NCBI RefSeq assembly: GCF_001610835.1
Contig: NZ_CP011270.1
Span: 2,436,001-2,500,000, forward strand
Reading direction: 5' to 3'
Source of the DNA: Planctomyces sp. SH-PL14
GTDB lineage: Bacteria > Planctomycetota > Planctomycetia > Planctomycetales > Planctomycetaceae
DNA: 64,000 nucleotides
How positions within the stretch are numbered: the first letter of the stretch is position 1; every line of letters begins with the position of its first letter. Below, piece by piece: positions 14,968 to 64,000 of this stretch. The notes beneath the pieces are model-generated. The model ran no database searches. It saw only the letters and a list, made by a program, of their open reading frames with translations, and was not told the DNA's origin. The translations under genes were made by a program, and so were the position numbers.

Positions 14968-15115
14968 CTTAAGAGGCCGTCCGAAAAACGAGGGCGCTTC
15001 CCATCTCACCCATCCTCAGCGAACGTGACAAACCACATCAACGGTGGAATCGACCCCGCCGGGCCAGTTACGCTCGCATCGGCCACACCCACTGTATCGC
15101 TTCGGAGCCGTCCCG

Positions 15116-18889: not shown

Positions 18890-19061
18890 GCGATTGTCGG
18901 GCGAAAAGTCGTGGGCCGGCGGGGAAATGGCGTGGCCGGGGAGAAAGTGTGAGGCGGGGTGTGGCCGCGGGTCAAGGGGGTGGAGTGTTGTGGTGGGGGG
19001 CCGTGGAAAAGATCGGGCGGCTTGCGCGGGGTTCTCCGGTTGCGAAGACTGCCGGGCCTAA

Positions 19062-19343
19062 ACCGGGGTCCAGGGGGTCACCCCTGGTGGGGGATGCAAG
19101 GGGGCAACGCCCTCTTGCCCGCCGGAGGCCTGGCCGTCGAGAAATGTCTGAAGGAGGGCTTATCCAGACGCGGACGACGTGTCGGATGCCCCCACATCAA
19201 CCCGCGGGGAATCCAAAACGGGCGTCCGTTGTGTCCCACGGTTCCTCATGGAAGTGCCTCCGGCGGCAAGAGGGCGGGACCCCCTTGACCCCAGGCTGCC
19301 GTGGCACGTTGGGTTTGACGTAGCAGTGTCGTGCCGGCAAGAA
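19062..19343 (+). repeat. Dispersed structured element, full copy 6
   Basis: Full but slightly shorter copy between divergent genes. The central hairpin is CAAGGGGGC, loop AAC, GCCCTCTTG: its fourth pair is G-C where copies 3 and 11 have A-T. The terminal hairpin is CCAGGGG, loop GTCA, CCCCTGG. The CAAG hairpin has one mismatch. Confidence 0.88.
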
Positions 19344-19540
19344 CATCGACCGGGCAGGAAAGGGTTCTTCCGGATGCGGCGAAACCCCAATCCGGGTAAC
19401 ATGATCCTGCAAAAGTCGCCCCAGGGCTCGTAGCTGGCGGTCCCCGTCGAGCCGAGGCGAATCTGTCGACCGTCCTGCCGGGGACGAGCGAGAGGACGGG
19501 ACCGCCGAGTTGCCTGGATTTGCTGCCAGACAGACCACCC

Positions 19541-24642: not shown

Positions 24643-24710
24643 TTCTTGATCGGGAGGGAGAGGGCAAAGTGGAATTGTGATGGGGGGCGGGGGCGGAGTC
24701 GAGTGTAAGG

Positions 24711-25022
24711 CGCTCTTGCCGGCAAAGCGCTGTTTGCTCAAACTCAATGTGCTACGGCAGCTGGGGTCAAGGGGGCCTCGCCCCCTTGCCGCCGGAGGCG
24801 CTTCCATGAGGAACCATGGGACACAACGGACGTCGGCTTTGTGGGACCGGCGTTGAGGACTCCTCGCTCGCTCTGGACTCCCTGCGGGTTGGTGAGGGGG
24901 CATACGGCACGGTGTCCGCGCTTGGACACTCACTCCTTCAGACATCTTCCGACGAGACGGCCTCCGGCGGGCAAAGGGGCCTTGCCCCTCTGCACTCCCC
25001 ACCAGGGGTGCCCCCTGGACCC
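24711..25022 (-). repeat. Dispersed structured element, full copy 7
   Basis: Full copy between the DUF4112 and threonine synthase genes, both on the minus strand. Its outer end directly abuts the DUF4112 stop codon (25023-25025). Hairpins: CAAGGGGGC, loop CTC, GCCCCCTTG and CCAGGGG, loop TGC, CCCCTGG. Confidence 0.9.
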
Positions 25023-25595
25023 CTATCCTCCAAACAACCATGTGCCGACCCAACGGATCGCCGTGAACGCCACGAACAGGCTTACCGTCAGACACGTCAG
25101 CACGATCACGATCAGGAGAGCAAAGAATGCGCGATCACTGAACTCCGCCCGGCGGACCGTCCGGGGATCGGCCGCCGCATGCCGACGAAGCAACTCCACA
25201 TTCCGGTTGTTCGCCTTCCAGTACACATCAAACGCATCACCCAGAATCGGAATCGAACCCATCGCGGCGTCGACCAGCAGGTTCGTCGTCATCCGGGTCA
25301 TCGTCACCTTCGAAACACCCCGCCGCTGCGCCTCCCGCAGAATCAGAATCGACAGGAGCGAAGTCCCAACATCCCCCAGCCCGGGGATGACACCCAGCAG
25401 AGCGTCGAGACCAATCCGGATGTTGGTTCCGGGAATCTTGAGGACGCTGTCGAGCAGATGCGCCAACACCTCCAGTCCAGCCAGCTCCATACCGGGACCG
25501 GTGGTCGGTCCCCTGCCACGAGGGGCCGATTCCCCAGGAAGGATGACCACGGGGTCGGCAGCGGACTCGGCGCGCGGATGAGATGCGTCGGACAA
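25023..25595 (-). CDS. DUF4112 domain membrane protein
   Basis: 190 residues from TTG 25595, chosen because GAGGAG lies 7 bp upstream; the first in-frame ATG (25490) would cut the start but keep the domain. The DUF4112 signature is clear: [36 protein letters not shown], then [24 protein letters not shown] at about 45-135. A single strong membrane span closes the protein (about 160-182, [21 protein letters not shown]). The family is of unknown function. The start is divergent from the next gene (25678) across 82 bp, so both may share a regulatory region. Confidence 0.85.
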
Positions 25596-30325: not shown

Positions 30326-30391
30326 GCGGTTCTCGTGGGAAACCGGAAGTTTAGTGGTTCGAGGGGCGAGGAGAGAGCGTCCCCTGTTCAT

Positions 30392-30720
30392 CGGGTCCAG
30401 GGGTACCCTGGTCAGGGAGTGCAGAGGGGAGAATCCCCTTTGCCCGCCGGAGGCCTGGCCGTCGAGAGATGTCTGAAGGAGATCGTGTCCAAGCGCGGAC
30501 ACCGTGTCATGTGCCCCCTCACCAACCCGCGGGGACTGCAAAGCAAGCGGTTGTCGATTGAAGGAGTCCTCAACGCCGGCCCCAAAAGGGGACGCCCGTT
30601 GTGTGCCACGGTTCCTCACAGGAGTGCCTCCGGCGGCAAGGGGGTAGGACCCCCTTGACCCCCGGCGGCCGTGGCACATTGGGTTTGAGCGGGCATCGCC
30701 GTGCCGGCCAGAACGAGGTT
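30392..30720 (+). repeat. Dispersed structured element, full copy 8
   Basis: Full copy between divergent genes. The central hairpin is GGGGA, loop GAA, TCCCC here, against GGGGC, AAC, GCCCC in most copies: the closing C-G pair is replaced by A-T and the loop changes too, with pairing kept. The other hairpin is CAAGGGGGT, loop AGG, ACCCCCTTG. Confidence 0.9.
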
Positions 30721-30852
30721 CGAGCGGAACGTCCGCTCCCCGCCGCGCTTCTCGTTTCCCCGGCCCGCACCTAAACTTGATCGATTCCGCCTGATGCGTC
30801 GTGGCCAACCGCGCCACGGAGGCGGCAACGACGGATTCGTCAGGAGCGAGAG

Positions 30853-40584: not shown

Positions 40585-40588
40585 ATGG

Positions 40589-40903
40589 CGTTCTCGCCGG
40601 CACAGCTATGCCAGCTCAAGCCCAACGTGCCCCGGCAGCCTGGGGTCAAGGGGGCCACGCCCCCTTGCCGCCGGAGGCACTTCCCTGAGGAACCGTGGTG
40701 CGCCACGGATGTCCCCTTTGTGGGACCGGCGCTGAGAACTCACGGCTCGCTTTGCAATCCCCGCGAGTTGGTGAGGGGGCATACGGCACCTTGTCCGCGC
40801 TTGGACCCTCGCTCCTTCAGAGAGATCGAGACGAGACGGGCCTCCGGCGGGCAAAGGGGCGTTGCCCCTCTGCACTCCCCACCAGGGTGCCCCTGGACCC
40901 GGT
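40589..40903 (-). repeat. Dispersed structured element, full copy 9
   Basis: Full copy filling the whole gap between two convergent genes: it starts 5 bp after the FHA/coiled-coil stop and ends 15 bp from the nitroreductase stop. Hairpin CAAGGGGGC, loop CAC, GCCCCCTTG. Confidence 0.9.
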
Positions 40904-40917
40904 GAAGGGGGAAGTGA

Positions 40918-44663: not shown

Positions 44664-44736
44664 GCATTTTGTCGTGCTGACGACGGTCGGGTGTGTCCGC
44701 TGGATGGTGTGGCGGGACGATTCCTCACGAGAGTGA

Positions 44737-45050
44737 ACCGGGGTCCAGGGGGTCACCCCTGGTGGGGGATGCAAGGGGGCAACGCCCTTTGCCCGCCGGA
44801 GGCCTGGCCGTCGAGAGATAATCTGAAGGAGCACGTGTCCGAGCGCGGACACCGTGCCGGATGCCCCTCACCAACCCGCGAGGATTGCAAAGCGAGCGGT
44901 GAGTCCTCAACGCCGGTACCACAAAGGGGATATCCGTTGTGTCCCACGGTTCGTCATGGAAGCGCCTCCGGCGGCAAGGGGTCGCCCCCTTGACCCCGGC
45001 TGCCGTGGCACATTGGGTTTGAGCTATCGAGCCGTGCCGGCAAGGACGTG
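44737..45050 (+). repeat. Dispersed structured element, full copy 10
   Basis: Full copy between two plus-strand genes, after the terminator. The CAAGGGG stem has loop TCGC and is shortened on both sides by the same amount. The central hairpin has lost one base on the right arm. Confidence 0.9.
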
Positions 45051-45189
45051 CATTCAGAAACCGGGATCAAGCCCCACTCCGATCCACCGGGGCACGAGCG
45101 CGTGGCATCCGTCCTCCAGCGGCGACTACAACTCGATAGGCGCCGCGCGGTGAATCGTCCCCGAGCCCGGCGCCAGGGAGTGACGACAC

Positions 45190-46011: not shown

Positions 46012-46013
46012 GG

Positions 46014-46166
46014 CGGATTGGGTGAGGGGGCATCCGGCACGGTGTCCGCGCTTGGACACTCGCTCCTTCAGATATCTCTCGACGGCCAAGCCTCCGGCGG
46101 GCAAGGGGCCTGTGTTGTTCTTCTGGGCCCCCTGCACCCCCAGACCAGGGTCCCCCTGGACCCGGC
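46014..46166 (-). repeat. Dispersed structured element, truncated copy
   Basis: About half of the element: the outer part from the GTGAGGGGGCAT motif to the CCTGGACCCGG end. The CAAG / GTGCCGG half is missing and the gene stop lies 3 bp from the break. The central hairpin is rebuilt as a long imperfect one with CAAGGGGCC and GGGCCCCCTG arms. Confidence 0.8.
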
Positions 46167-48583: not shown

Positions 48584-48620
48584 GTGATAGTGGTGGAGGT
48601 CCCGGCTAGCGCCTCCTCAA

Positions 48621-48930
48621 CCGGGTCCAGGGGTACCCTGGTGGGGAGTGCAGAGGGGCAACGCCCCTTTGCCCGCCGGAGGCCTGGCCGTCGAGAGACG
48701 TCTGAAGGAGATAGTGTCCAAGCGCGGACACCATGTCGTATGCCCCCTCACCAACCCGCGGGGATTCCAAAGCGAGCGGTGAGTCCTCAGCGCCGGTTCC
48801 ACAAAGGGGACGTCCGTTGCCTACCACGGTTCCTCATTGAAGCGCCTCCGGCGGCAAGGGGTTGCCCCCTTGACCCCGGCTGCCGTGGCACATTGGGTTT
48901 GAGCGAGCACAGTCGTGCCGGCAAGGACAT
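48621..48930 (+). repeat. Dispersed structured element, full copy 11
   Basis: Full copy between two convergent genes, ending 18 bp from the GT2 stop. Central hairpin GGGGC, loop AAC, GCCCC; second hairpin CAAGGGG, loop TTGC, CCCCTTG. Confidence 0.9.
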
Positions 48931-48947
48931 CTTTCGAGCCAGCGGGA

Positions 48948-49919
48948 TCAGCCTTCCTCTCCCTCACCAAGCACCGTCCGAACCACGAACTGCGGCTTGC
49001 GATTGATATTGAGATGCACGCGCCCAACGTACTCCCCCAACACCCCCAGCGACAGAAGCTGCAAGCCGCCGAGCACAAGGACCGCCACGATGATCGACGC
49101 GTAACCGCTCACCGAGATCCAGCCCGCCAGCCCGGCAACAAGATAGTAAAGCCCCAGCAGCAGCCCCAGACCGGCCGCCACCATCCCCGTGATCGACACC
49201 GCCTGGAGCGGAATCAGCGAGAAGTTCGTGAACATGTTGATCGCCAGCGTCAACAGCTTCATGAACGAGTACCCCGACCGCCCCTCCGCCCGCTCGTCAT
49301 GCCGCACCGGAACGGTGCTCACCCGCTGCGTGTTCCAAGCCAGGAGGCCATCGATGAACGTGAAGTTCAGGTTGTACGTAAGGATGCTCCGAACCAGCTC
49401 CCGGCGCATGATCCGGTACGAGCTCCCCTTGATCGACGACTGAAAAACGAGCTGGCCGAAACGGATCAGAACCCACGATCCCAGGTTGCGGAACCAGCCG
49501 TGCTTCTTCTTCTCGACGATCGTTCCATAGACGAGGTCGTCATCGCGGGTCCGGATCGCCTCCAGAAGGTGGGGAAGCTCTTCGGGCGGGTTCTGGAGAT
49601 CGTCGTCCATCGTCGCAACGAACTCGCCGCGGGCGTGATGGAACCCGCACATGAGGGCATTGTGCTGGCCGAAATTCCGCATCAACCGGATCGCCCGGAC
49701 GTGCTCCGGATGCTGACGCCGCAGCTCCTGGAGGACCGTCCACGAGCGGGAGTCGACACCGCTGTCGTCGACGAAGACGACCTCCCAGGTCGTTCCCCCG
49801 GGACGCAGCGCTTCGCCGACACGGCGGACGAGCTCCGGAAGAGTGTCGGTCGACTTATAAACCGGCACGACGACGGAGAGCTGAGGCGCGGACGGGGTGG
49901 TGGAGGGGGGAGCGGACAT
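48948..49919 (-). CDS. Family 2 glycosyltransferase with C-terminal membrane hairpin
   Basis: 323 residues from ATG 49919. The GT-A fold begins LSVVVPVYKSTDTLPELV, has VVFVDDSGVDSRSW as the nucleotide-sugar strand and the metal-binding MDDDLQNPPEELPHLL. Two membrane helices follow at about 240-265 and 275-300 (SITGMVAAGLGLLLGLYYLV and ASIIVAVLVLGGLQLLSLGVL). This is the layout of polyprenyl-phosphate glycosyltransferases such as DPM/GtrB-type enzymes, which load a sugar on a lipid carrier for later transfer outside. It opens the run of surface-related genes on the minus strand. Confidence 0.92.
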   Translation of the reverse strand: MSAPPSTTPSAPQLSVVVPVYKSTDTLPELVRRVGEALRPGGTTWEVVFVDDSGVDSRSWTVLQELRRQHPEHVRAIRLMRNFGQHNALMCGFHHARGEFVATMDDDLQNPPEELPHLLEAIRTRDDDLVYGTIVEKKKHGWFRNLGSWVLIRFGQLVFQSSIKGSSYRIMRRELVRSILTYNLNFTFIDGLLAWNTQRVSTVPVRHDERAEGRSGYSFMKLLTLAINMFTNFSLIPLQAVSITGMVAAGLGLLLGLYYLVAGLAGWISVSGYASIIVAVLVLGGLQLLSLGVLGEYVGRVHLNINRKPQFVVRTVLGEGEEG

Positions 49920-51781: not shown

Positions 51782-53458
51782 CTATCGCCGGGCGGCGAAG
51801 AGCCAGCCCCACAATCTCAGGCGGAGGGAAACCGGCAGCCAGTCGGACAGGGTGACCAGGATCCGGGACTTCCAGCCCAGAAGCCGATGCCGCCGTTCTC
51901 TGCGGACCGTGTCGAGGATGTCCCGGGCCACCGCTTCGGGAGTGAGGAGCTCGGCGGAGTTCGCCCCGCGGACTCCCCCCGACGCCTGGAAGTTGGTTCG
52001 CGTCCCCGAGGGCGAATAGGTCACGACGAGGTTCGTCTCCCGGAGTTCCTCGGAGAACGCCAAGGACCAGTTCAGCAGGAACGCCTTCGAAGCGGCATAG
52101 ACCGACATGCCGGGCAGGGGGTGATAGGCGACGCTGCTGGCGATGTTCACGATCACGCTCCCTTCGCGGGTGAGCTGTTCCTTCAGCAGATGTGTCAGGT
52201 GCATGGTCCCCAGTACGTTGATCCGGACCGTTCGCTCGGAAGCTTCCCACGGAAGATCGAAGAGCCCCCCGCGAATGCCGATCCCCGCGTTGTTGATGAG
52301 GCCCCCCAGGCAGAGCGGCTCGACGGCCTTGCGGAGCCGCTGGAGATCGGCCTCCTGCGTCAGGTCGGCGGCGATCACTTTGAGCCCGGGATCTTCCGAC
52401 AGGCGATCGACGGCGCGGTCGACCGCCACGACCGGATGCCCCGCCTCACGCAACGCGGCCGTCAGCGCGAAGCCGATACCGCTGTTGGCGCCGGTCACGA
52501 TCCACCAGCTCCCCTCGGGACGATGGCGCGCGGCCACGTCCCGCGCTCCCTCCTCCAGCCGGATCGGTCGCTCAGCCAGGAGGTCGCGCCGGAAATCCGG
52601 GTCGTCCGCCGCGAGGTAGTCCAGGAACAGATTGTTGACCGTGAGCGGGAGCCGGGAATGGAGCCGTCCCAGCACGCTGCGGAGGGAAGGAAACCGGAAC
52701 TGGCGGGGGCGCCGGCCCCGCAGCGTCTCGTGCAGGAGCGACCAGACCTCGGCGAGCGAGCGGTTCTCCGTGACGGCGAAGTAGGTCTTCCCGCGAGCCG
52801 CTGGGGAGTTCAGGCAACGGACCAGCGCTGGGGCGAGATCCTCGACATGGATCAGCGGCACGCGCCCGGGAAAGCCGAGCCGCGCCGTCCACGGCTTGCG
52901 GCGGATCATGCGGGCCATGACGTTGAGGTGCGACCCGGCCCGCATCCCGCTTCCGTAGACCCAGCCGGGGCGGAGGATCGTATAGGGAAGCCCGCTGCGC
53001 TCCACGAGCTCTTCCGCGCCCCGCTTGGACCGGCCGTAGTCCGACGTCGGATGCGGCGCGGACTGGAGGGTGAGAGGCTGTCGGACGTCGTCGGCCGGCG
53101 CCCGATCGACCGCCCCCACCGTGCTGACGAGGATGAAGCCCCGCAGCGTGTCCGAAGTCCGGAGCCGCGACAGCATCGCTTCGACCGGCGCGACGTTGAC
53201 GCCGTGGTAGTGAGTCCCCTGTCCGAAGCGGGCATCGGCGGCGATGTGGAAGACATATGCGACGCCGTCCAGAGCGTCGATCCAGCGGTCCGGCGTTTCG
53301 AGGTCCCCGGCGATGGGGCGGATCCGTCGATCGGTGGGCCCGGCAGCCGGTCCCCGGCTGAGCACGCGGATCTCGTCGTCTGCAGACAGCGCTTCGAGCA
53401 GTTGCGGCAGGAACGCCCGCCCGACGAACCCGGTCCCCCCGGTGACAAAGACAATCAT
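51782..53458 (-). CDS. Fusion of NAD-dependent epimerase and classical SDR
   Basis: 558 residues from ATG 53458. The first half (about 1-290) is an extended SDR: IVFVTGGTGFVGRAFLPQLL, LVSTVGAVDRA, and the catalytic pair in SDYGRSKRGAEELV. The second half (about 310-558) is a complete classical SDR: WWIVTGANSGIGFALTAAL, LGGLINNAGIGI, IVNIASSVAYHPLPGM and SVYAASKAFLLN with the YxxxK pair, and a C-terminal hydrophobic helix. Both halves keep their catalytic residues. Such double proteins could carry out two successive oxidoreductions on one substrate. Neighbours suggest a sugar or lipid carrier substrate. Confidence 0.88.
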   Translation of the reverse strand: MIVFVTGGTGFVGRAFLPQLLEALSADDEIRVLSRGPAAGPTDRRIRPIAGDLETPDRWIDALDGVAYVFHIAADARFGQGTHYHGVNVAPVEAMLSRLRTSDTLRGFILVSTVGAVDRAPADDVRQPLTLQSAPHPTSDYGRSKRGAEELVERSGLPYTILRPGWVYGSGMRAGSHLNVMARMIRRKPWTARLGFPGRVPLIHVEDLAPALVRCLNSPAARGKTYFAVTENRSLAEVWSLLHETLRGRRPRQFRFPSLRSVLGRLHSRLPLTVNNLFLDYLAADDPDFRRDLLAERPIRLEEGARDVAARHRPEGSWWIVTGANSGIGFALTAALREAGHPVVAVDRAVDRLSEDPGLKVIAADLTQEADLQRLRKAVEPLCLGGLINNAGIGIRGGLFDLPWEASERTVRINVLGTMHLTHLLKEQLTREGSVIVNIASSVAYHPLPGMSVYAASKAFLLNWSLAFSEELRETNLVVTYSPSGTRTNFQASGGVRGANSAELLTPEAVARDILDTVRRERRHRLLGWKSRILVTLSDWLPVSLRLRLWGWLFAARR

Positions 53459-53605
53459 GATGGGCGATATCCCGCCGCGATTCGGTCGCGCCTCGGGGCC
53501 GCGGAGGTGCAGACTCGGGGGCGTTCAAGGGAGGGCATGATCAGGTCGGGCACGAGAGAAGAGGGTGGGGGGCCGGATTTCCGATGGGGGGCCGCGGACG
53601 ATTCC

Positions 53606-55753
53606 TCAGCGGGACACTGGGCGATAAAGGACGGTGTGGACGGAGGTCGGGGCTCCGGAGAGCCGTTCCATGGCAGCCCAGAGACCCCCGAGGAACGCCG
53701 CCGGCAGGAGCCAGAGTGCCGCCGCCAGATCGACGGCGAGCGTCGTCGCGCGGTTCCAGCCAAAGTCGGTCCGGCGCTTGAGGCGGTAGTAAATGTAGTT
53801 GTGCGGGAACGGTCCCAGATTGGCGAGGCTCTGAATGCATGCGAACAGGGTGTAGGCGAAGACTCGCTCTTCCCGCACCGGTTCGAATCCCCCCTGGGCC
53901 AGCAACAGGTCGAGCGACCGGTGGCTGAACTCGTGGCAATGCGCGCTCCGGTCGCGGAAGGCCCAGGCGGACCCGAGCCATCGGGCCAGCCGGCAGTCGG
54001 GATTCGGAACGCAGACGAGGAACACGGAGTTCGGTCCGCACCGCTCGCGGACGTCGCGGACGACCTGCGGGAGTTCCGCGCCGGGGATGTGCTCGAGAGC
54101 GTGCCACGACGTCACGAGATCGAAGGGCCCGGCGAGATCGGTGACGCGGGGCACGACCTGCAGGCCGAGGTCGACGGTCGCGAATCGCAGCGAGGCGGAG
54201 CTGACCTCGACCCCCGCCACGGACGAGAAGACTGATCTCGCGTGATTCAGGAACTTTCCGGTCCCCGATCCGAGATCGAGCAGGGCTCCCCGTCCCGGGG
54301 CGACGGCACTCGCCAGCGCCAGTTGTGACCGCGTCAGGCCGTCCGAGCGGTCGGCCGAAGAGCGATCGAGATGGCCGTTGTCGACGATGCCGTCGACCGC
54401 GAGGCCCGCGGTGTCGCGGTGACCGCATTGGGGGCAGACCAGATAGCCGTCGCTCACCGCGTCGCGCGGCGCCTGGCAGATCGAGCACCGCCGCGGCGCA
54501 GGAGCGGACGGAGCGCGGCGGGGCTTCGGTCCGCGGGCGATGATCACGACGTTCCAGCAGAGCGGGCCGAAGAAGGGGAAGACGGTGAGCAGAATCCGGT
54601 CGAGCCAGGCGAGCGGTCGATAGAGCCAGGCCCACTGGTCCGCTTCCTCGATCACTTTCTTCCAGTACCGTTCCTTGTTGGGGCTGCGGCGCTGTACGAC
54701 CGCCATGAGGATGAAGATCGCGAGCGTCGTCAGCCAGAACCAGCGGATGTGCGACGATCCGAAGCGAGAGCGGATGCGGCGGATCTCCGCCAGCCGCAGC
54801 GGATGCTCGTCCTCGGTCCGGACGGCGGTCGCCATCCGGCGGTAGACGTTGATGACCGGGTTGTACGCGACCGGATCCCAGCTGACGAAGAGGCCGTCCG
54901 GCTTCAGGTGCGGGAGCAGGCGGTCGAGCGTCGTCTCGATGTCGACATGGTGCAGCGTGTTCCCGGTGTAGATCACGTCGAACGGCTCGATCCCGTCGAG
55001 CCCGAGATCCTCCGCGGCGGAGAGGGCCGTGCGGACCGTCACCTGGTTCGCCTCCGCGAGACGCCGCGTCGTGTCCAGCATGCCGGGGGAGATGTCGCTG
55101 GCGGTGACGTCCGCCCCCTCCATCGCGAAGTACACGCTCGCTTCGCCCAACCCGCAGCCGACGTCGAGCAGCCGGACTCCCCGGAGATTGCCGAGCTGGC
55201 CGCGGATGTAACGCATCTCCGGGGCGGTGCAGGCCTCGTTCATCTGCCGCACCGGAATGGCCTGGACATCGACCGTCGCCGCCCACTCGTCGTGAAACAG
55301 CTCTTCGGCCCGCTTTCGCGAGCCGGCGGCGTCGCGGACCTCCGCCAGCCAGCGTGCCAGCTGCGAGGGCTCGAACAGCCCGGACAGCTCCAGCACGCGG
55401 CGGAACTGCTCGTCGAAGGTCTCGCGGTTCTGCAGCTCGACCGGGTCGTCCGTTCCCCGCTCCCCGTCCCCGTCCCCTTGCCCGTCCGCGGTCTCTGTCG
55501 GCCGGCCCGGAGAGGTCTGGTCGCCGCGGGTGTAGAACTTCGCTCCGTCCGTCGTGACGATGCACTGCCCTGGAGCCGGACTGGGCCAGGAGACCTGAAA
55601 CCGGGAGCCGGGATAGTCGAGCGACAGGGCCGAGGTCCACTCGGTCAACCGCCGCGCGTCCGCGGGGGCCACGGTCGACAGCTCCGTCGCCAGCCGCGCG
55701 CCCGCCGCCAGGAAGTGATGCACGGCGCTTTCGAACAGGATCTTCTTGGGCAT
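53606..55753 (-). CDS. Double SAM-dependent methyltransferase with internal zinc ribbon
   Basis: 715 residues from ATG 55753. A first methyltransferase domain (about 190-310) has RLLDVGCGLGEASVYFAMEG and DVIYTGNTLHHVDIETTL. A membrane-like segment follows at about 350-370 (FWLTTLAIFILMAVVQ) and another at about 405-420. A zinc ribbon lies at about 435-460 (CSICQAPRD...CPQCGH). The second methyltransferase domain (about 485-600) has ALLDLGSGTGKFLNHA and FDLVTSWHALEHIPGAEL. A terminal pair of hydrophobic segments closes the protein. The first 150 residues are of unknown type. It may methylate two positions of one glycan or lipid. A fused, partly membrane-attached form like this is unusual. Confidence 0.82.
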   Translation of the reverse strand: MPKKILFESAVHHFLAAGARLATELSTVAPADARRLTEWTSALSLDYPGSRFQVSWPSPAPGQCIVTTDGAKFYTRGDQTSPGRPTETADGQGDGDGERGTDDPVELQNRETFDEQFRRVLELSGLFEPSQLARWLAEVRDAAGSRKRAEELFHDEWAATVDVQAIPVRQMNEACTAPEMRYIRGQLGNLRGVRLLDVGCGLGEASVYFAMEGADVTASDISPGMLDTTRRLAEANQVTVRTALSAAEDLGLDGIEPFDVIYTGNTLHHVDIETTLDRLLPHLKPDGLFVSWDPVAYNPVINVYRRMATAVRTEDEHPLRLAEIRRIRSRFGSSHIRWFWLTTLAIFILMAVVQRRSPNKERYWKKVIEEADQWAWLYRPLAWLDRILLTVFPFFGPLCWNVVIIARGPKPRRAPSAPAPRRCSICQAPRDAVSDGYLVCPQCGHRDTAGLAVDGIVDNGHLDRSSADRSDGLTRSQLALASAVAPGRGALLDLGSGTGKFLNHARSVFSSVAGVEVSSASLRFATVDLGLQVVPRVTDLAGPFDLVTSWHALEHIPGAELPQVVRDVRERCGPNSVFLVCVPNPDCRLARWLGSAWAFRDRSAHCHEFSHRSLDLLLAQGGFEPVREERVFAYTLFACIQSLANLGPFPHNYIYYRLKRRTDFGWNRATTLAVDLAAALWLLPAAFLGGLWAAMERLSGAPTSVHTVLYRPVSR

Positions 55754-55794
55754 GGGACGGAGGAATGGGCCGCGGCGATGGCCGAGCGAGGCGC

Positions 55795-57021
55795 TCAGGC
55801 GATGGCCGCGGAATCGGCGTCGGTACTCGTCAACGTCAGATGCTGGGGACTCGACGGCAGGGCGATGCGGTCCCGCGCCTCGGTGCGGATCCGTTCGGCC
55901 TTGGCGACCAGGTCGTCGTAGCTCACGGGCCACGGCTTCCTGGGGGGCGCGGCGAGAAACAGTTTGACCCGATCCCACTTCGCCGCGAGGTACCGCATCG
56001 AAATCGTCATCTCGGGATAGCTGCCGTACATGCAGCCGGAGCAGGCCCCGGTCACCTCGCGGACCCGCTCCCGGAAGACGCTGTCGCGGTAGACACGCGG
56101 AAAGTCTGCGGCGTATGTGAAGACCTTGGGGCCTGCCAGGCGGAGGTCGCAGCAGGGGGCGAAGGCTCCGTTGGGCAAGACCGCGAAATACAGGTTCGGA
56201 CTGTCGCAGACGCCGCCGTTCTTCGTCCGCCACGTCGTCGGCTGGTCAGCGACGAACCGCAGGATGTCGTCGAGATACTGGTCGCTGTCGTACAGGAGGT
56301 AGCCCTCCCGCCGCATCGTCCGGACCCGCTCGACCAGGGCGTTCACGACCGGCAGTTCCTCCGGCCGCCACCGCTTGGACTGATCGAAAGTCCGGAAGCT
56401 CATCGGTTTGTCGAGCGTCGTCACGTGGATCGGGACGAGCGACGTGAGCCAGCCGATCTCCGTGCCGAAGCGGATCACGTCCTCGATGTCGCCGACGTTG
56501 TCCCGCTGGAGGACGCAGCCGAGCGATGCGAAGCTCTTCTCCCGCGGCAGGTGCTGCATGAACGACGCCATCGCCCGCAGCGCCGCGTACCAGGACTTGC
56601 GAAACCCGCCGTTGATGTCGTCCTGATTGCCGGGCCAGAGCGAGTCGAGCGAGATCGAGATGTCCCGTCCCCCCTTCTCGATGACCCGCTGGATCGTCTC
56701 GTCGCTCGCCAGGCCGTTCGTCTGCATCCGGACGTGGACGCCGCGGGACTCGAAGGCCTCGATGATCTCCGGAAGATCGGTCCGGGCGAACGGCTCCCCC
56801 CCCGTCAGGAGGACCATCGCCACCTTCATCGCCTGGAAGTTGTCGGCGATCCGCTTCACCTCATCGAGCGTGCATTCCCGCACGTCCGAGTTGGCGTAGA
56901 TGATGTTGCACTGCTGGCACGTCAGGTTGCAGCGGGCCGTGATATAGAACTGCACGTAGACCGGGGCGTCCTGAAAGAGGGCGGCCTGGGCCAGCGTCGA
57001 TTTGGAGAGAGTCGAGAACAT
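55795..57021 (-). CDS. Radical SAM/SPASM-type protein
   Basis: 408 residues from ATG 57021. The radical SAM cluster motif is CNLTCQQC (Cys31, Cys35, Cys38), followed by VLLTGGEPFARTDLPEIIE and QTNGL. The C-terminal part has a SPASM-like cysteine set (CDSPNLYFAVLPNGAFAPCCDLRLA, CSGCMYG), which usually holds an additional iron-sulfur cluster. Such enzymes modify peptides, lipids or sugars. No precursor peptide was found next to it. It is followed by a GT2 glycosyltransferase gene 9 bp away on the same strand, and the double methyltransferase starts 41 bp downstream, so the three probably form one operon. Confidence 0.9.
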   Translation of the reverse strand: MFSTLSKSTLAQAALFQDAPVYVQFYITARCNLTCQQCNIIYANSDVRECTLDEVKRIADNFQAMKVAMVLLTGGEPFARTDLPEIIEAFESRGVHVRMQTNGLASDETIQRVIEKGGRDISISLDSLWPGNQDDINGGFRKSWYAALRAMASFMQHLPREKSFASLGCVLQRDNVGDIEDVIRFGTEIGWLTSLVPIHVTTLDKPMSFRTFDQSKRWRPEELPVVNALVERVRTMRREGYLLYDSDQYLDDILRFVADQPTTWRTKNGGVCDSPNLYFAVLPNGAFAPCCDLRLAGPKVFTYAADFPRVYRDSVFRERVREVTGACSGCMYGSYPEMTISMRYLAAKWDRVKLFLAAPPRKPWPVSYDDLVAKAERIRTEARDRIALPSSPQHLTLTSTDADSAAIA

Positions 57022-57030
57022 GGTCGCCTG

Positions 57031-57996
57031 TCACCGTGACTTCAGATTCGAGGTGGTGGCGATCAGATACAGCGGGCGGTCCTTGTCCTGTTCGAAGATC
57101 CGCGAGATGTACTCTCCCATGATCCCCAGGATCAGGAACTGGACCCCGCCGATGAGCAGGACCACGAACAGCACGGCCGAAATTCCAGGGACGGTCCACG
57201 GCGTGAAAAGCCGCAGGCAGGCGACGAGGACCATCCCGAAGAGCGTGAGCGTCGTCATCCCCAGCCCGAGATAGGTCGAGATCCGCAGCGGCAGGTTCGA
57301 GAACGAGAGGATGGCGTCGGTCGCGAAGCGGACCATCTTGAACAGCGGGTACTTCGTCGTCCCCGCGTGCCGCTCTTGCCGATCGTATACGTACGGCGCG
57401 CTCTTGAATCCGACCCACGCCACCATGCCGCGAATGAAACGGTGCGTCTCCCGCATCTGGCGCACGGCCAGGACGACGGAGCGACTCATGAGCCGGAAGT
57501 CCCCCGCGTCTGCCGGGATGTCGACGCGGCAGATCCGCCGCAGCATCCGGTAGAAGATCGCGGCGGTCGCCTTCTTGAACAGGGTTTCGCCCGACCGGCT
57601 TCGCCGCTTGCCGTAGACGAGGTCATGCCCTTCGAGGGCCAGCGCCAGCATGTCCGGAATGACTTCCGGGGGATCCTGCAGGTCGGCGTCGATGATGCAG
57701 ACGAAGTCGCCATCAGCGTGATCGATCCCCGCGGTCACCGCTGCCTGGTGACCGAAGTTGCGGCTGAACTGCACGACTTTCACGTGGCAATGCGCCGCCG
57801 CCGCCTCTTCGAGAAGCACGCCGGTCCGGTCGACCGATCCGTCGTTCACGAACAGCAGCTCAAGGCGGCAGTTCGGCATGCGGGACTGGATCGCCAGGAC
57901 CCGCTGCAACAGCGCCGGCAGACAGTCTTCTTCATTGAAGACGGGAATGACGACCGTCAAGGTCGTTTCGTCGCCCGTCGAAGCAGCTTCCCGCAT
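57031..57996 (-). CDS. Family 2 glycosyltransferase, polyprenyl-phosphate type
   Basis: 321 residues from ATG 57996. GT-A motifs: LTVVIPVFNEEDCLPALLQ, LLFVNDGSVDRTG, the metal-binding IDADLQDPPEVIPDML and the later FRLMSRSVVLAVRQM. Two membrane helices near the C-terminus (about 232-256 and 266-290) place it with DPM/GtrB-like enzymes, which transfer a sugar to undecaprenyl phosphate. It is 36-40% like-patterned to the GT2 at 48948 by eye only, so the two may act on different sugars. It precedes the radical SAM gene by 9 bp. Confidence 0.92.
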   Translation of the reverse strand: MREAASTGDETTLTVVIPVFNEEDCLPALLQRVLAIQSRMPNCRLELLFVNDGSVDRTGVLLEEAAAAHCHVKVVQFSRNFGHQAAVTAGIDHADGDFVCIIDADLQDPPEVIPDMLALALEGHDLVYGKRRSRSGETLFKKATAAIFYRMLRRICRVDIPADAGDFRLMSRSVVLAVRQMRETHRFIRGMVAWVGFKSAPYVYDRQERHAGTTKYPLFKMVRFATDAILSFSNLPLRISTYLGLGMTTLTLFGMVLVACLRLFTPWTVPGISAVLFVVLLIGGVQFLILGIMGEYISRIFEQDKDRPLYLIATTSNLKSR

Positions 57997-58364: not shown

Positions 58365-59297
58365 ATGACGCGATCGCTGACGTTCGCGGCGGGGTTGGCG
58401 GTCGTGGGCGTCGCTCTCTACCTGAACCGCGGGGCGCTGGAGCAGGTCTGGACGCGGGGCGCCGACTGGGGGGACCTCGCCTGTGGCACGGTCCTGCTCT
58501 TCTTCGAACTGGCAGTGGCGTCCTTCCGCTGGCGAACGGTCCTTCAGAGCGCCGGCGTGTCGCTGGCCTATCTCGACACCGTTCGTCTCGTGGTCTTCGC
58601 ACGGGCGTCGCAGCTGCTTCTGCCGCTGCCGTCGGGGAACGACCTGGCCCTCCTGGGGCTCGTCGCGTCGACGGTCCCCGATCGAACGGCCGCGATGGGG
58701 TCGGTGCTGATCGATCGGCTGATCGGCGTGACCGGGCTGTTCACCGTGGCGGCTCTGATGGGGACGCTCAATCGGGTCGTCCTTCGAGAGCCGAACCTCC
58801 TGCTCGGTCGCCTCCACCTGCTGGCGATCGCGTTCGCCGTCGGGCTCTGGATCCTGCTCGGGATTCTTCTCAGGTCGTCCGTCAGGGACGCGGCGATTCG
58901 CCTCGTCCCGACCGAGCGGGCGAAGCGGATCGCGCTCGAACTCTCACGCGGCCTGCAGGGGCTGGCGGCGCGGCCCTCCGTATTCCTGACGACGATGGGT
59001 CTGTCGTTGGTGACGCACCTGCTCGCGATTTCGGCCTTCTTCTTTGCCTGCCGGGCGCTGCGGCTTGTCCAGGGCGAAGGGGGATGGCTGCAGCTCTTCG
59101 TCGTCGTGCCGTTCATCCTCATCACGACGGTCCTGCCGATTCCGGTCGGGGCCATGGTGGCGACGCTGAGCGTCAGCGACCAGCTGTTCCGCCTGATGGG
59201 GATCGAGGGCGGCGCCCTTGCGTTCCTGAGCTACAACGCGATCGTCATCCTGGCCGTCTACGTGGCCCTTCCGTTCGTGCTGCGACGGGCCCGCTGA
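58365..59297 (+). CDS. LPG-synthase-like integral membrane protein (UPF0104 type)
   Basis: 310 residues from ATG 58365 with GAGAGGA upstream. Seven or eight membrane helices are visible from residue 5 to 305. Family features include FFELAVASFRWRTVLQSAG, RASQLLLPLPSGNDLALLGL (the conserved polar loop) and IPVGAMVATLSVSDQLFRLMG. This is the transmembrane domain of lysylphosphatidylglycerol synthases without the cytosolic aminoacyltransferase domain. Stand-alone members are often flippase-like or part of glycolipid gene clusters, which agrees with its neighbours here. Confidence 0.88.
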   Translation: MTRSLTFAAGLAVVGVALYLNRGALEQVWTRGADWGDLACGTVLLFFELAVASFRWRTVLQSAGVSLAYLDTVRLVVFARASQLLLPLPSGNDLALLGLVASTVPDRTAAMGSVLIDRLIGVTGLFTVAALMGTLNRVVLREPNLLLGRLHLLAIAFAVGLWILLGILLRSSVRDAAIRLVPTERAKRIALELSRGLQGLAARPSVFLTTMGLSLVTHLLAISAFFFACRALRLVQGEGGWLQLFVVVPFILITTVLPIPVGAMVATLSVSDQLFRLMGIEGGALAFLSYNAIVILAVYVALPFVLRRAR

Positions 59298-59520: not shown

Positions 59521-60705
59521 TCACGCACGGTTGCCGAGGTCGGGACTGTGCCGGATGAGCGCCTCGTGGAAGACACGGATTCGACCTTCGTTGATCCCCA
59601 GCGTCGCCCGGCGGCAGGCATGCCGAAGCCCCTGCTGCGCAAGCTCAGACGCGACCCGATCCTCACTCAGGATCGTCCGGTTGGAGTCCACGATCGAATC
59701 GGCCACGGAACGCGCGACCGCCCCGTCGACCGGCATATCCGGGAGGACGTTCGCGAGGAGCATCTGGTAGCGGAGCACCGATCGGGTCGCCGTGACCGGT
59801 TCATAGGTCTGGAGGCTCATCAGGCTCCCGCGCGTCAAGCCGATGGCCAGATTCGGAAAGATCGAGAAGTGATCGTAGTTCTCGAATCGGGGCGAGCGAT
59901 GGAGCTTCAGTCGGCGGGCCGCCTTGTCCCACCATTGGCAGACCTCGTCGCGGAGCAGGGAGATCGTGGAGGTGTGATCTCCCTGGCGCTCGTGATGCAG
60001 CGTGGCCGCGAGCAACGGTTGAAACGAATCGTGGTGGACGGTCGCCACATGGTAGGCCTCCAGCACGCTCTCCACTCCGATCTTCCAGTTCGTCTCCCAG
60101 GGGATCGACTGCTCGTCGATGGGGGCGGTCTGTCCGAAGTGCTCGCTCAGGTGCGACAACAGTTCCGCGTACGATCCCAGGTGCTCCGACAGGCTGTTTC
60201 CATCAGGCGAGAGCCGGACAAAGAGAAACTCGCCGCACGGCTCCAGTTCAAACCGGCGAAGGGCCCGCTCGACCTTCTGTTCCTCCGAAAAGCCGAAGTG
60301 CTCGCGGTTGCCTGGAATCCCGACCGGCACGCCCCGCGCATCGTAGGTCCACCCGTGATAAGGACACTGCAGCGGACCGCAACCGGAATCCGCGGTGCGG
60401 ATCCGACTGTGGCGATGAGAACAGACATTGTGCAGCGCCCGCAGCTCGCCGTGGAAGTTCTGGATCACGATCGGCACTCCGCCGATCGTCCGAGCCAGAT
60501 AATCCTGGTGCCCGGAAACCTGCCGCTTCAGACCGACAAAGATCCATTGCTTCCGAAAGATGTCTTCCATCTCCCGAGCGTGGAGCGACTCATCGAAATA
60601 GCAGTCCGGCGGCAGGCCGGCCGTCACGCTGCGATCGCTCCCACCGACCCCCTCCGGAACGCCGGGAGAATCGTCCGATGCCGCAGTCGATGGATCAGGT
60701 GTCAT
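59521..60705 (-). CDS. Rieske non-heme iron oxygenase, alpha subunit type
   Basis: 394 residues from ATG 60705. The Rieske [2Fe-2S] site is CSH (Cys95, His97) followed by CPYHGW (Cys114, His117). The mononuclear iron site is in NWKIGVESVLEAYHVATVHH, with His219 and His224 (or 225) plus a later acidic residue. This is the layout of aromatic-ring hydroxylating and related oxygenases. The substrate is open: in this operon, an acyl chain held on the ACP or a lipid is more likely than a free aromatic. No reductase or ferredoxin gene is adjacent. It is the last gene of the operon, 31 bp after the SDR. Confidence 0.92.
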   Translation of the reverse strand: MTPDPSTAASDDSPGVPEGVGGSDRSVTAGLPPDCYFDESLHAREMEDIFRKQWIFVGLKRQVSGHQDYLARTIGGVPIVIQNFHGELRALHNVCSHRHSRIRTADSGCGPLQCPYHGWTYDARGVPVGIPGNREHFGFSEEQKVERALRRFELEPCGEFLFVRLSPDGNSLSEHLGSYAELLSHLSEHFGQTAPIDEQSIPWETNWKIGVESVLEAYHVATVHHDSFQPLLAATLHHERQGDHTSTISLLRDEVCQWWDKAARRLKLHRSPRFENYDHFSIFPNLAIGLTRGSLMSLQTYEPVTATRSVLRYQMLLANVLPDMPVDGAVARSVADSIVDSNRTILSEDRVASELAQQGLRHACRRATLGINEGRIRVFHEALIRHSPDLGNRA

Positions 60706-60736
60706 GGGGAGCCGGGAGAACGAGCCGGGAAGGGAC

Positions 60737-61498
60737 TCACGGTGCCGTCAGGCCGCCATCGACGACGAGCGTCGTTCCGGTGATCCATCGCCCCGTCCCC
60801 GCCAGCAGGAACACGATCGCGTTCGCGACGTCCTCCGGCTCGCCCAGGCCGAGGGGGTGGACCGCCTCGTAGCGCTGTCGTTGTTCCTCGGAGACCGATT
60901 GCCGATAGCGCTCGAACATCTCGGTCCGCACGAGAGCCGGGGCGACGCAGTTGACCCGGATCTTCTTCGGAACGAGTTCCATCGCCAGGGCCCGGGCCAG
61001 GGAGATGACGGCCCCCTTGCTGGCGGCATACACGGAGTTGCCCGGAACGCCCGCCAGAGCGGCGGTCGACGCTAGGAGCACCACGCTCGATCCCGCGGGA
61101 TTGAAACACCCCGCCTGCTGGAATCCGCGGATCAGCATCCCGGCCGCATGGACATTGATGTCCATGTGCTTGTCAAACAGCCGCGAGTCCATGACGCGGA
61201 TCGGGACGGTGATCTGATTGCCCGCGCTATGCACCAATCCGTCGAGCGGACCGGACTCCGCGACGACGGTGTGCATCCAGGCCGGAATCGAGTCCGCCTG
61301 GCGCAGATCGGTTTCGAAAACGAGATGTCCCGTCCCCTCCATGGCGGAGAGTGTTTCGTCCAGTCTCGTCCGGTCGCGCCCCACGAGGACGACGCGACCG
61401 CCGACCCGGCTGAGGAGGATCGCCGCCGCCCGTCCGATCCCCGACGAAGCGCCGGTCACAAGGACGGTCCGCCCCGCCATCCCCATCGGATTTGTCAT
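60737..61498 (-). CDS. SDR family oxidoreductase (FabG-like)
   Basis: 253 residues from ATG 61498, which overlaps the KASIII stop by 4 bp (ATGA). The Rossmann motif is LVTGASSGIGRAAAILL, followed by GLVHSAGN, LLASTAALAGVPGN and the catalytic SVYAASKGAVISL. The end WITGTTLVVDGGLTAP is that of FabG-like 3-oxoacyl-ACP reductases. Next to a ketosynthase III and an ACP it would reduce the 3-keto group made by condensation. Confidence 0.93.
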   Translation of the reverse strand: MTNPMGMAGRTVLVTGASSGIGRAAAILLSRVGGRVVLVGRDRTRLDETLSAMEGTGHLVFETDLRQADSIPAWMHTVVAESGPLDGLVHSAGNQITVPIRVMDSRLFDKHMDINVHAAGMLIRGFQQAGCFNPAGSSVVLLASTAALAGVPGNSVYAASKGAVISLARALAMELVPKKIRVNCVAPALVRTEMFERYRQSVSEEQRQRYEAVHPLGLGEPEDVANAIVFLLAGTGRWITGTTLVVDGGLTAP

Positions 61499-62598
61499 TG
61501 CGGCACCGAATACAGCGGTTCCTGAATCACGGATTCGTCCACCTCCACGATGGGCGGGACGACAACGTTTGCGGTCTTGAGCGACGCGGCCCCCCAGGAG
61601 AGGCCGACGCCGAACCCCGCCAGGATCAGGTTCAGCGGTTCCTGCGACAACCGTTCTCCCAGCGTCGCCGTCAACGCCAGCGGAATCGAGGCGGACGAGG
61701 TGTTTCCGTAGTCTTTCAGGATCAGGGGGACCTTCTCCGCCGGAAGAGCCATGTTCTTCATCAGGTGCTTCAGCATGAATTCATTGGCCTGATGAAACAC
61801 GAAGGCATCGACCTCGTTGCGAGAGACCTGCGCCGCCTGTTCGATCCCGGAGAGCAGTTGCGGAACACGATTCAGGGTGAACAGGAAGATTTCCGACCCG
61901 TTCATGTACAGGTCGTTGAGGGATCGCGGGTTCCCGTCGTCGTAGGTTCGCACGACGTCGTTCTGGACTCCCGGCAGAAGTCGCGTCCCGCCGGCCGGAA
62001 CGATCAGGTGCTTTCCGCCGGATCCATCGGTTCCCAGGTCAAATGTCCAGGAGGTCTCCCGGTCCTCGGTCGGTTCCAGAGCGGTGACGGTCCCGGCGTC
62101 GCCAAAGAGCATGACGGCGGATCGATCCCGCGGACCGATTCGCCGGGAGGCGACTTCGCCCACGGCCAGCAGGCAGCGGCGACTGGCTCCGGATGCCACC
62201 AGATGCGAAGCGACCCACAGGCCGTAGATGTAGCCGGAGCAGCCGAGATTCAGGTCGAGCGCGGCGCACGTCGTGGGAAGCCGCAGACGGTCCTGCAGCA
62301 GGCAGCTCGTTGCCGGAAGCACGTAGTCCGCCGTCTGGGAGACGAACACCAGAGAGTCGACGGAGTCGCGTTCCCAGCCGAGATCGTCAAGCAGCCGTTC
62401 CCCGGCGGCGAAGCACAGATCCGAGGTGCACATCCCGTCGGGAGCGACCCGGCGGCGCTGCACGCCGGTGGCTCGAATCACCTTGGCGATCTCCGCGGCC
62501 CCGAAAACCGCTTCGTAGTCCGAGGTCGGTACGATGCGCTGTGGAACGGCGGATGCCAATCCCGCCATCCGCACTCCGCGAATCCGACTGACGCTCAT
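61495..62598 (-). CDS. Beta-ketoacyl-ACP synthase III-like protein
   Basis: 367 residues from ATG 62598. The KASIII catalytic triad is complete: Cys120 in LNLGCSGYIYGLW, His269 in FVFHQANEFMLKH and Asn299 in GNTSSASIPLAL. The rest of the thiolase fold is normal for FabH-like enzymes. It would condense an acyl-CoA starter with a malonyl-ACP or act as an acyl transfer enzyme of the KASIII superfamily. Together with the neighbouring ACP and SDR it forms a minimal chain-building set separate from housekeeping fatty acid synthesis. Confidence 0.93.
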   Translation of the reverse strand: MSVSRIRGVRMAGLASAVPQRIVPTSDYEAVFGAAEIAKVIRATGVQRRRVAPDGMCTSDLCFAAGERLLDDLGWERDSVDSLVFVSQTADYVLPATSCLLQDRLRLPTTCAALDLNLGCSGYIYGLWVASHLVASGASRRCLLAVGEVASRRIGPRDRSAVMLFGDAGTVTALEPTEDRETSWTFDLGTDGSGGKHLIVPAGGTRLLPGVQNDVVRTYDDGNPRSLNDLYMNGSEIFLFTLNRVPQLLSGIEQAAQVSRNEVDAFVFHQANEFMLKHLMKNMALPAEKVPLILKDYGNTSSASIPLALTATLGERLSQEPLNLILAGFGVGLSWGAASLKTANVVVPPIVEVDESVIQEPLYSVPQ

Positions 62599-62716
62599 TT
62601 CATTGTTCTTTACGGGGACCGGGGAAAGTCCGTCTCTGCGACGGTTCGTCGAAGGATCGCCGGTCTCGAGGAGTCGCGCAGCCTGATTTGCGGCTTCCGG
62701 TGAGGCGCTCCACAAG

Positions 62717-62950
62717 TCAATCTGCGAGATGATCCGAAACGAGCTTCATCAGGTCGTCGACGGTCTTGCAGGCGGCCAACTGCGGCCCCGCGACACGTTG
62801 ACTGAACTCACTGTCGACCAGCGCGATAAAGCCCATCAGGGTCAGCGAATCCCACGCTTCCATCTGCTCCAGAACTTCGTCCGGACGGGTCGTTCCGGGG
62901 GGCCGTTCCATCAGGGAGTCCAGCTTCAACAAAAAAACTTTGCGAGTCAT
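62717..62950 (-). CDS. Acyl carrier protein
   Basis: 77 residues from ATG 62950, overlapping the stop of the acetyltransferase gene by 4 bp. The phosphopantetheine motif is AWDSLTLMGFI with Ser35, preceded by the acidic helix RPDEVLEQMEAW. The length matches a discrete ACP. The motif is DSL followed by T-L-M-G, as in carrier proteins of specialised pathways rather than the housekeeping ACP (DSLDTVE). It is expected to hold the intermediates handled by the KASIII, SDR and possibly Rieske proteins. Confidence 0.9.
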   Translation of the reverse strand: MTRKVFLLKLDSLMERPPGTTRPDEVLEQMEAWDSLTLMGFIALVDSEFSQRVAGPQLAACKTVDDLMKLVSDHLAD

Positions 62951-63678
62951 AAACCGTTGAAACTCCTGGACTTCCACGCCCGCAACCGGGCCGCTTCAAA
63001 GCACTGTCGATCGCAGCCAAGGTATCGGAGCATTTCCCCGGTCGCAACGGCCCCCGATGTTGAAATCTCTGTGAAGACGGGCCCGCTGGCCGTCTCGACG
63101 CGGTAGAGCGGCACGTCTCCCAGGATGCGATATCCCAGCGTCCGGGTCGACTCCATGGCCAGGTCATTCGTGACGAGGACCTTCGAATACATCGTCGACA
63201 GATCGAGGTGTTCGAAGTCCCAGGCCATGCATGCAAAGTTGACGAAGTGCATGAAATTCATCCCGCCCCCGCGCTCTCCGCGAACAATGCCGTCGCTCAT
63301 GTTTCCACGTCGGCCGAGATCGACGAACCCGGTCCGGCCGATGAGGCGGTCATCGCCGACATACACCAGGCGGTTGAGGCGGCGGTCATCGCCCAGCGCG
63401 TGCTCCAGCCATTGCCGAGTCCCCTCCAGCGTGACCTGCCGCTGATCGAGCCAGCCCGTTCGGATCTGGTTTCTCCATCGGACGAACGTCTCCACGAGTG
63501 GCTCGCGGTCCGGCCGCGTTGCGGTCAGGGTCAGGACTCGTCCCAGCGGGCGATCGTCAAAGTCGAGAACGGGAATGTCCGCGGCCGCCTCGCCGGATTT
63601 CAGTTTTCGCACCCGTTCCAACTGCCAGGGCTCCGGCGCTCCCAGGGACTCCGGATCGAAACCCAAAAAGCCGCTCAC
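62947..63678 (-). CDS. GNAT-like acyltransferase
   Basis: 243 residues from GTG 63678, with GGAGGA 3 bp before the start. The middle part, about 60-200, resembles RimJ/PseH-like GNAT proteins: FVRWRNQIRTGWLDQRQVTL, VYVGDDRLIGRTGFVDLG, LDLSTMYSKVLVTNDLAMES and TLGYRILGDVPLYRVE. It probably transfers an acyl group from acyl-CoA or ACP to an amino group. It is the first gene of the operon and its stop overlaps the ACP start. Confidence 0.78.
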   Translation of the reverse strand: MSGFLGFDPESLGAPEPWQLERVRKLKSGEAAADIPVLDFDDRPLGRVLTLTATRPDREPLVETFVRWRNQIRTGWLDQRQVTLEGTRQWLEHALGDDRRLNRLVYVGDDRLIGRTGFVDLGRRGNMSDGIVRGERGGGMNFMHFVNFACMAWDFEHLDLSTMYSKVLVTNDLAMESTRTLGYRILGDVPLYRVETASGPVFTEISTSGAVATGEMLRYLGCDRQCFEAARLRAWKSRSFNGL

Positions 63679-63924
63679 GGATCCTCCGGCAAGACAACAG
63701 GGGCCATCGAACGACCGCTCGCTCGCAGACGGCAGAGTTAACTCCGCTCTGTTAAGGAATGGCGAGGGGGAACGCCTGCCGGGAATCGTTCTCTTCGAAC
63801 GGAGAACTTCCCCGCGAATGTCCGGATGGGAATGGAGACCTCTTCATTTCGCCTTTACAGAACCCCGTCATCGTTTCGAGACGGTGACCGCGACCTGACG
63901 CCCGGCGATTGAAGAAACGTTCCT
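63679..63924. promoter_or_regulatory. Divergent control region of the acyl/Rieske operon
   Basis: About 245 bp between the GTG of the GNAT gene (minus strand) and ATG 63925 (plus strand). It must hold promoters for both directions. No clear operator palindrome was recognised by eye. Confidence 0.5.
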
Positions 63925-64000
63925 ATGTTCGTGAACTCCGGCAGCCTGCCGCATCTGTTGCCTCCGGCCGCGTACACCGACGCCGATTGGTTCGCCAGGG
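63925..64000 (+). CDS. Start of a probable second Rieske-type oxygenase (cut by the window end)
   Basis: 25 residues from ATG 63925 are visible (LPHLLPPAAYTDADWFAR is the clear part). A start of the type LPxxxYTDxxWFAxE is typical for ring-hydroxylating dioxygenase alpha subunits and related Rieske proteins, where a helix with a conserved Trp/Phe follows. The stretch is short, so this is a guess. Its divergent place next to the operon would fit a second oxygenase of the same pathway. Confidence 0.45.
   Translation, partial: MFVNSGSLPHLLPPAAYTDADWFAR

Follow-up and report, generated by a model that had tools for sequence, protein, structure and literature searches.

A two-armed acyl carrier protein-ketosynthase cassette with two Rieske oxygenases in Planctomyces sp. 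SH-PL14, probably for N-acylation of an amino sugar

In Pseudomonas syringae pv. tabaci 6605, a KASIII-type ketosynthase, a 3-ketoacyl-acyl carrier protein (ACP) reductase, an ACP and an N-acyltransferase produce the 3-hydroxybutyryl amide of flagellin viosamine. The genes form a viosamine island (vioA, vioB, vioS, vioR, acp, vioM and vioT) with a counterpart in P. aeruginosa PAK, and a vioR mutant has lost the modified viosamine (PMC3927599). In the O-antigen of Flavobacterium psychrophilum, the N-3,5-dihydroxyhexanoyl group on Qui2NAc4N is assigned to wfpC-G, with wfpC and wfpE described as encoding different 3-ketoacyl-ACP synthases (PMC6519341). Here, we analyze a gene cassette at the right-hand end of a 64,000-nucleotide stretch (the window) of Planctomyces sp. 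SH-PL14, which corresponds to positions 2436001-2500000 of a genome assembled as a single 8.44-Mb contig. The cassette has two divergent arms, and we propose that it probably builds a short, hydroxylated acyl chain on the ACP that it encodes and joins this chain through an amide bond to an amino sugar, which would belong to a surface or secreted glycan.

The minus-strand arm contains five intact open reading frames (ORFs), which agree in identity and strand with the initial annotation of the window: a GNAT-family N-acyltransferase of 243 residues (62947-63678), a discrete ACP (62717-62977, with a probable start at ATG 62950), a KASIII (KS1; 61495-62715, probable start ATG 62598), a FabG-like short-chain dehydrogenase/reductase (SDR; 60737-61498) predicted to be a 3-ketoacyl-ACP reductase, and Rieske oxygenase 1 (Rieske1; 59521-60705). 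All five have protein-like GC content across codon positions. The plus-strand arm diverges from a 246-bp spacer (63679-63924) that lies between the GNAT and Rieske oxygenase 2 (Rieske2) starts, and no sigma-70-like promoter was detected within this spacer. Rieske2 had been noted as a probable start at the window edge (63925-64000), and reading the DNA to the right shows a complete gene that continues to window-equivalent position 65091 (L003:4925-6091). The same DNA revealed a second KASIII (KS2; window-equivalent 65088-66137, L003:6088-7137), which overturns the view that the cassette has a single ketosynthase. KS2 is followed on the opposite strand by phosphate butyryltransferase-like and enoyl-CoA hydratase-like genes. 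The KASIII/SDR junction is a 4-bp overlap (ATGA, 61495-61498), as is the Rieske2/KS2 junction. A further 4-bp overlap had been reported between GNAT and ACP, but this length requires ATG 62950 as the ACP start; from GTG 62977, the overlap is 31 bp. The locus has a GC content of 62-65%, compared to 66.6% for the window, and the third-position GC of its seven genes (0.71-0.83) is lower than that of most neighboring genes. These values fit acquisition by horizontal transfer, but do not prove it.

Catalytic residues of the ketosynthase and Rieske enzymes, which the initial annotation had described as present, could all be located. KS1 matches ACP_syn_III and ACP_syn_III_C and carries a Cys-His-Asn triad (C159/H308/N338), with equivalent residues in KS2. 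The SDR matches adh_short_C2 and the SDRs of related loci, and contains the catalytic motif Y157-x3-K161. Rieske1 matches the Rieske and Ring_hydroxyl_A families and has the features of Rieske non-heme iron oxygenases (RHOs): a C-x-H/C-x2-H cluster (C95-x-H97 and C114-x2-H117), a two-histidine iron site (E216-A-Y-H219-(4)-H224) and an RHO alpha C-terminal domain. Equivalent cluster and iron-site motifs are present in Rieske2. Both oxygenases score far below all equivalog cut-offs, reaching 102.6 and 73.5 bits against glycine betaine monooxygenase GbcA (NCBIfam cut-off 670 bits). The ACP retains a W-D-S-L attachment site, which is kept as W-D/S-S-L in its relatives, and its PP-binding score of 19.9 bits falls slightly below the Pfam cut-off of 20.8. 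The GNAT matches Acetyltransf_3 weakly (21.4 bits, cut-off 25.4).

Based on the chemistry of these families, KS1 would condense a short acyl-CoA with malonyl-ACP, and the SDR would reduce the 3-keto product to a 3-hydroxyacyl chain. KS2 could perform a second elongation to give a 3,5-dihydroxyhexanoyl-type chain, or could use a different starter. The GNAT is predicted to transfer the acyl chain from ACP onto a nucleotide-activated amino sugar at its amino group, and Rieske1 and Rieske2 would hydroxylate the acyl group, either while it is bound to ACP or once the N-acyl sugar is complete. We infer the chain length, acceptor sugar, glycan and Rieske reaction in this scheme. The earlier suggestion of an oxidized short acyl group attached to an amine by the GNAT is retained here as an ACP-tethered chain made by ketosynthase and reductase and probably oxidized by the Rieske enzymes, and the amine is narrowed to what is most likely an amino sugar.

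Comparison with the two characterized systems relies on published gene descriptions of VioS, VioR, VioB and WfpC-G. The cassette resembles the viosamine island in its KASIII, 3-ketoacyl-ACP reductase, dedicated ACP and N-acyltransferase, but it has a GNAT rather than a VioB-type acyltransferase, carries two KASIII and two Rieske genes, and has no vioA-like gene or flagellin nearby. The wfp module is alike in combining two different ketoacyl-ACP synthases with an ACP, one reductase and an N-acyltransferase; in contrast, its acyltransferase is PglD-like and the account drawn on here names no oxygenase, whereas the cassette has a GNAT and no amino-sugar genes at the locus. A PglD-like acyltransferase and amino-sugar genes, the wfp-style features missing from the cassette locus, are both found in another genome of the same family (G025). 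The initial annotation did not recognize a known pathway, but the core has been described in P. syringae (PMC3927599) and F. psychrophilum (PMC6519341). The chemistry of the ACP-KASIII-reductase-acyltransferase core is therefore already known, and only the Rieske steps appear to be undescribed. The mini fatty-acid operon can be assigned to a definite class of pathway; the idea of a wholly new pathway falls to that extent, and the Rieske-bearing variant remains new.

Two further enzymes are useful points of reference. PseH is an N-acetyltransferase of pseudaminic acid biosynthesis, and its substrate is a 4-amino sugar nucleotide. A profile match to PseH places the cassette GNAT in the same fold family, with diamine acetyltransferases scoring equally well; unlike PseH, it is predicted to use a longer, ACP-bound acyl donor. 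CMP-N-acetylneuraminate hydroxylase (CMAH), a Rieske-type enzyme, hydroxylates a nucleotide sugar on its N-acyl group. The presence of a Rieske domain in CMAH has been noted (PMC9219854). The analogy with the cassette oxygenases is one of function only; Pfam and NCBIfam scans gave no CMAH family match.

The initial annotation had proposed a search for conserved ACP-KASIII-SDR-Rieske neighborhoods, and similar gene sets were found in other bacteria. A tblastn search of plasmids with KS1 led to Burkholderia glumae pBGF3, where the gene order is flagellin, fliD, fliT, a GT41-type TPR protein, vioA, KASIII, ACP, a second KASIII, SDR, a hexapeptide acyltransferase and Rieske. The second KASIII of pBGF3 (L021:8031-9132) is unannotated and is split between two frames (8031-8861 and 8677-9132), reflecting either a pseudogene or a sequencing error. 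In Azospirillum brasilense Sp7, pseI and pseG flank a group of genes for a KASIII, two SDRs, a GNAT and a Rieske enzyme. Paraburkholderia, Polaromonas, Undibacterium and a Vampirovibrionales metagenome-assembled genome (MAG) carry a VioA-like DegT protein with ACP, ketosynthase, SDR, PglD-like acyltransferase and Rieske. The Acidovorax set lacks DegT, adjoins two flagellin genes and includes two Rieske genes; the Paraburkholderia locus likewise contains two Rieske genes. Thus, the B. glumae, Azospirillum, Paraburkholderia, Polaromonas, Undibacterium and Acidovorax loci share KASIII, SDR, N-acyltransferase and Rieske genes with the cassette, usually also an ACP, and some have two KASIII or two Rieske genes. 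They differ from it in having aminotransferase, pse or flagellin genes at hand and in mostly using hexapeptide acyltransferases, a type also present in G025. Identities to related loci are 50% for KS1 (to the KASIII of same-family genome G026), 44-55% for the SDR, and 44% for Rieske1 (to the Azospirillum cluster Rieske).

We then scanned genome contigs with Rieske1 and recovered 80 loci, the closest seven of which have E-values of 1e-40 or less. KASIII genes are present in the retrieved DNA of six of these seven loci and in only one of the other 73 (Undibacterium), an association (Fisher p = 1.6e-7) to be read with caution given the kinship of the two Azospirillum loci and the shortness of some contigs. 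The one close locus lacking a KASIII gene comes from a Kiloniellaceae MAG, whose contig ends 0.8 kb past the Rieske gene. Other short contigs of this MAG carry KS1-type genes with an SDR, and one of them adds a GNAT and an ACP-like ORF. The grouping of the cassette genes is more than chance, as this set turns up again in several phyla. The Rieske-bearing variant is nevertheless sporadic, patchy across several phyla and rare. Among 199 genomes sampled from the class, Rieske1 had no match exceeding 34% identity other than its own; and the Paraburkholderia Rieske was found only in its own genome among 300 genomes of that family, which indicates that the variant is rare. Three genomes of the Planctomyces family (G025, G026 and G031) have the ACP-ketosynthase-SDR core with no Rieske gene, arranged in G025 as sugar transferase, ACP, KS1, SDR, PglD-like acyltransferase, KS2 and DegT.

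The two ketosynthases belong to different lineages. A maximum-likelihood tree of 28 KASIII sequences resolved two clades (support 99/97), with KS1 in one of them, and all four loci that have two ketosynthases, including those of G025, B. glumae and Undibacterium, contain one from each clade. Therefore, the pair reflects two recurring roles rather than recent duplication. In a tree of 31 Rieske sequences, Rieske1 groups with Kiloniellaceae and Azospirillum enzymes (100/99) and Rieske2 with planctomycete enzymes (100/99), two of which adjoin a polyketide synthase (PKS) and a condensation-type protein. The Rieske2-clade, ketosynthase-linked and flagellin-linked Rieskes together split from 14 other Rieske enzymes (98/96). 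As a separate observation, two same-family genomes (L110:7140-18744 and L111:1349-12889) carry Rieske, SDR and condensation-type genes after a type I PKS, and these Rieskes group with Rieske2.

An acyl substrate for the Rieske enzymes is suggested by their recurring link to ketosynthase/ACP systems, and they would act on this group either on ACP or on the sugar. A broader idea, which we hold tentatively and at a little under even odds, is that a bacterial Rieske family hydroxylates the acyl groups of N-acylated amino sugars (as acyl-ACP or sugar nucleotide), is distributed patchily over several phyla, and has been used twice in this cassette. If so, short acyl amides on surface sugars would carry additional hydroxyl groups. 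Full-text searches that covered few subscription papers turned up no relevant paper linking a Rieske enzyme to flagellin, viosamine, an O-antigen or an amino sugar. Should the Rieske step prove real, it would be a bacterial parallel, in function, to the hydroxylation of CMP-sialic acid in animals, and would modulate N-acyl groups on the sugars of flagellin or of the cell surface; such groups can be recognized by hosts and phages. The recurrence of the gene set in Azospirillum and several Burkholderiales makes the proposal testable in bacteria from which flagellin can be purified.

The acceptor was approached through the GNAT (ACYLTRANSFERASE). It gave no tblastn match among plasmids, and besides its own genome only two detectable relatives occur in 392 genomes of the phylum. 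Both are fused to a DegT/DnrJ/EryC1/StrS aminotransferase, with the GNAT domain N-terminal in one and C-terminal in the other. These two fusions in opposite order are strong evidence, at the level of sequence, that this GNAT family acts on an amino group installed by a sugar aminotransferase. By inspection, the fusion loci encode glucose-1-phosphate cytidylyltransferase-like and CDP-glucose dehydratase-like enzymes, and one of them includes a KASIII and an ACP-like ORF at a distance of a few genes. The two loci (L124:7577-14420 and L125:5125-13051, from two genomes of the phylum) share cytidylyltransferase-like, dehydratase-like, DegT and split transketolase-like genes along with a GNAT/DegT fusion, which possibly represent an undescribed CDP-amino-sugar pathway. 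Since both GNAT relatives are fused to DegT, and since related clusters lie beside vioA or pse, flagellin and glycosyltransferase genes, the acceptor amine is most likely that of an amino sugar. The cassette GNAT aligns with the Azospirillum cluster GNATs with 96% probability in hhalign. A single-sequence search against PseH gave no significant match; a three-sequence GNAT profile matched PseH (4xpk) with an E-value of 3.6e-8. An AlphaFold model of the GNAT from its single sequence had a pLDDT of 34 and was unusable for fold comparison.

Several observations weigh against an amino-sugar pathway at this locus. The same GNAT profile matches diamine and spermidine acetyltransferases about as well as PseH, and the family match of the ACP is weak. 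The locus encodes no sugar aminotransferase or nucleotide-sugar gene and no redox partner for the Rieske enzymes. Elsewhere in the genome, the best matches to DegT, which are 28-35% identical for a VioA-type protein, lie far from the cassette, and the flagellin genes are also distant, at 8.43 and 6.94 Mb. In addition, the KASIII placed closest to KS2 by the tree comes from an ACP-ketosynthase-condensation enzyme operon of G025, and Rieske2 is closest to the PKS-adjoining Rieskes, so the Rieske2-KS2 arm may serve something else. Because there are no amino-sugar genes at the locus, the acceptor sugar must come from elsewhere. Among the DegT neighborhoods of the same genome, a set of LegB-, LegC- and CBS-nucleotidyltransferase-like genes with a sugar transferase at ~1.84 Mb (L130) could supply it, but is only a candidate with no direct link to the cassette.

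The affinities of KS2 and Rieske2 raise the possibility of two separate systems, in which the minus-strand arm decorates an amino sugar and Rieske2-KS2 forms a small polyketide or lipid pathway that is a neighbor by chance. The KS2 arm could indeed have a different history, given its closest KASIII and the two planctomycete Rieskes found beside PKS and condensation-type genes. However, G025, B. glumae and Undibacterium each pair one ketosynthase of each clade within one sugar locus, and Rieske genes likewise come in pairs in Acidovorax and Paraburkholderia. The two arms moreover share the 246-bp spacer and a similar, lower GC content, and we consider chance proximity unlikely.

We also considered the possibility that the cassette makes a free small molecule, either a short-chain N-acyl amino acid akin to the stieleriacines or an N-acyl amine. 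In this reading, the GNAT would be an N-acyl amino acid synthase, and the Rieskes would tailor the product. Planctomycetes are known to make N-acyl tyrosines by ligation of acyl-ACP and amino acid (PMC12479983), and both the polyamine acetyltransferase matches of the GNAT profile and the kinship of Rieske2 with PKS-linked enzymes are compatible with such a product. In contrast, the only detectable relatives that the GNAT has in the phylum are fusions with sugar aminotransferases, related clusters accompany sugar and flagellin genes, and the stieleriacine paper makes no mention of a Rieske, ketosynthase or GNAT (PMC12479983). Stieleriacine biosynthesis was set aside, and a free product of either kind seems quite improbable. 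Least credible, and very improbable in our view, is a recently acquired fragment with no working role in its host: the low GC values, the lack of other Rieskes above 34% identity in the class sample and the missing aminotransferase are as expected for such a fragment, but none of the seven genes is disrupted, and they retain their catalytic residues and translational overlaps.

Another group of minus-strand genes lies to the left (51782-57996), encoding a two-domain SDR protein, a two-domain methyltransferase, a radical SAM protein and an ArnC/PgfS-like glycosyltransferase. These genes were excluded from the cassette because an opposite-strand gene (58365-59297) intervenes and their third-position GC is mostly higher; in addition, no matching set was seen in the related loci that were read. 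They may constitute a separate glycan or lipid locus. Approximately 18-30 kb to the right of the window (L004:1784-8000 and 13021-14304), phage-like ORFs (tape-measure-like and protease-like) and an integrase-like ORF were recognized by eye only.

The window also contains a dispersed repeat of ~320 bp, with copies that are ~80-90% identical and occur on both strands. There are at least ten near-full copies in the 64 kb (1718-2066, 2981-3308, 5250-5602, 8989-9314, 14634-14970, 24710-25023, 30389-30725, 40588-40904, 44735-45073 and 48607-48964), together with partial copies at 19057-19344 and 46013-46109. The repeat was found in every other stretch of the same genome that was compared, and would number well over a thousand copies genome-wide if this density holds.

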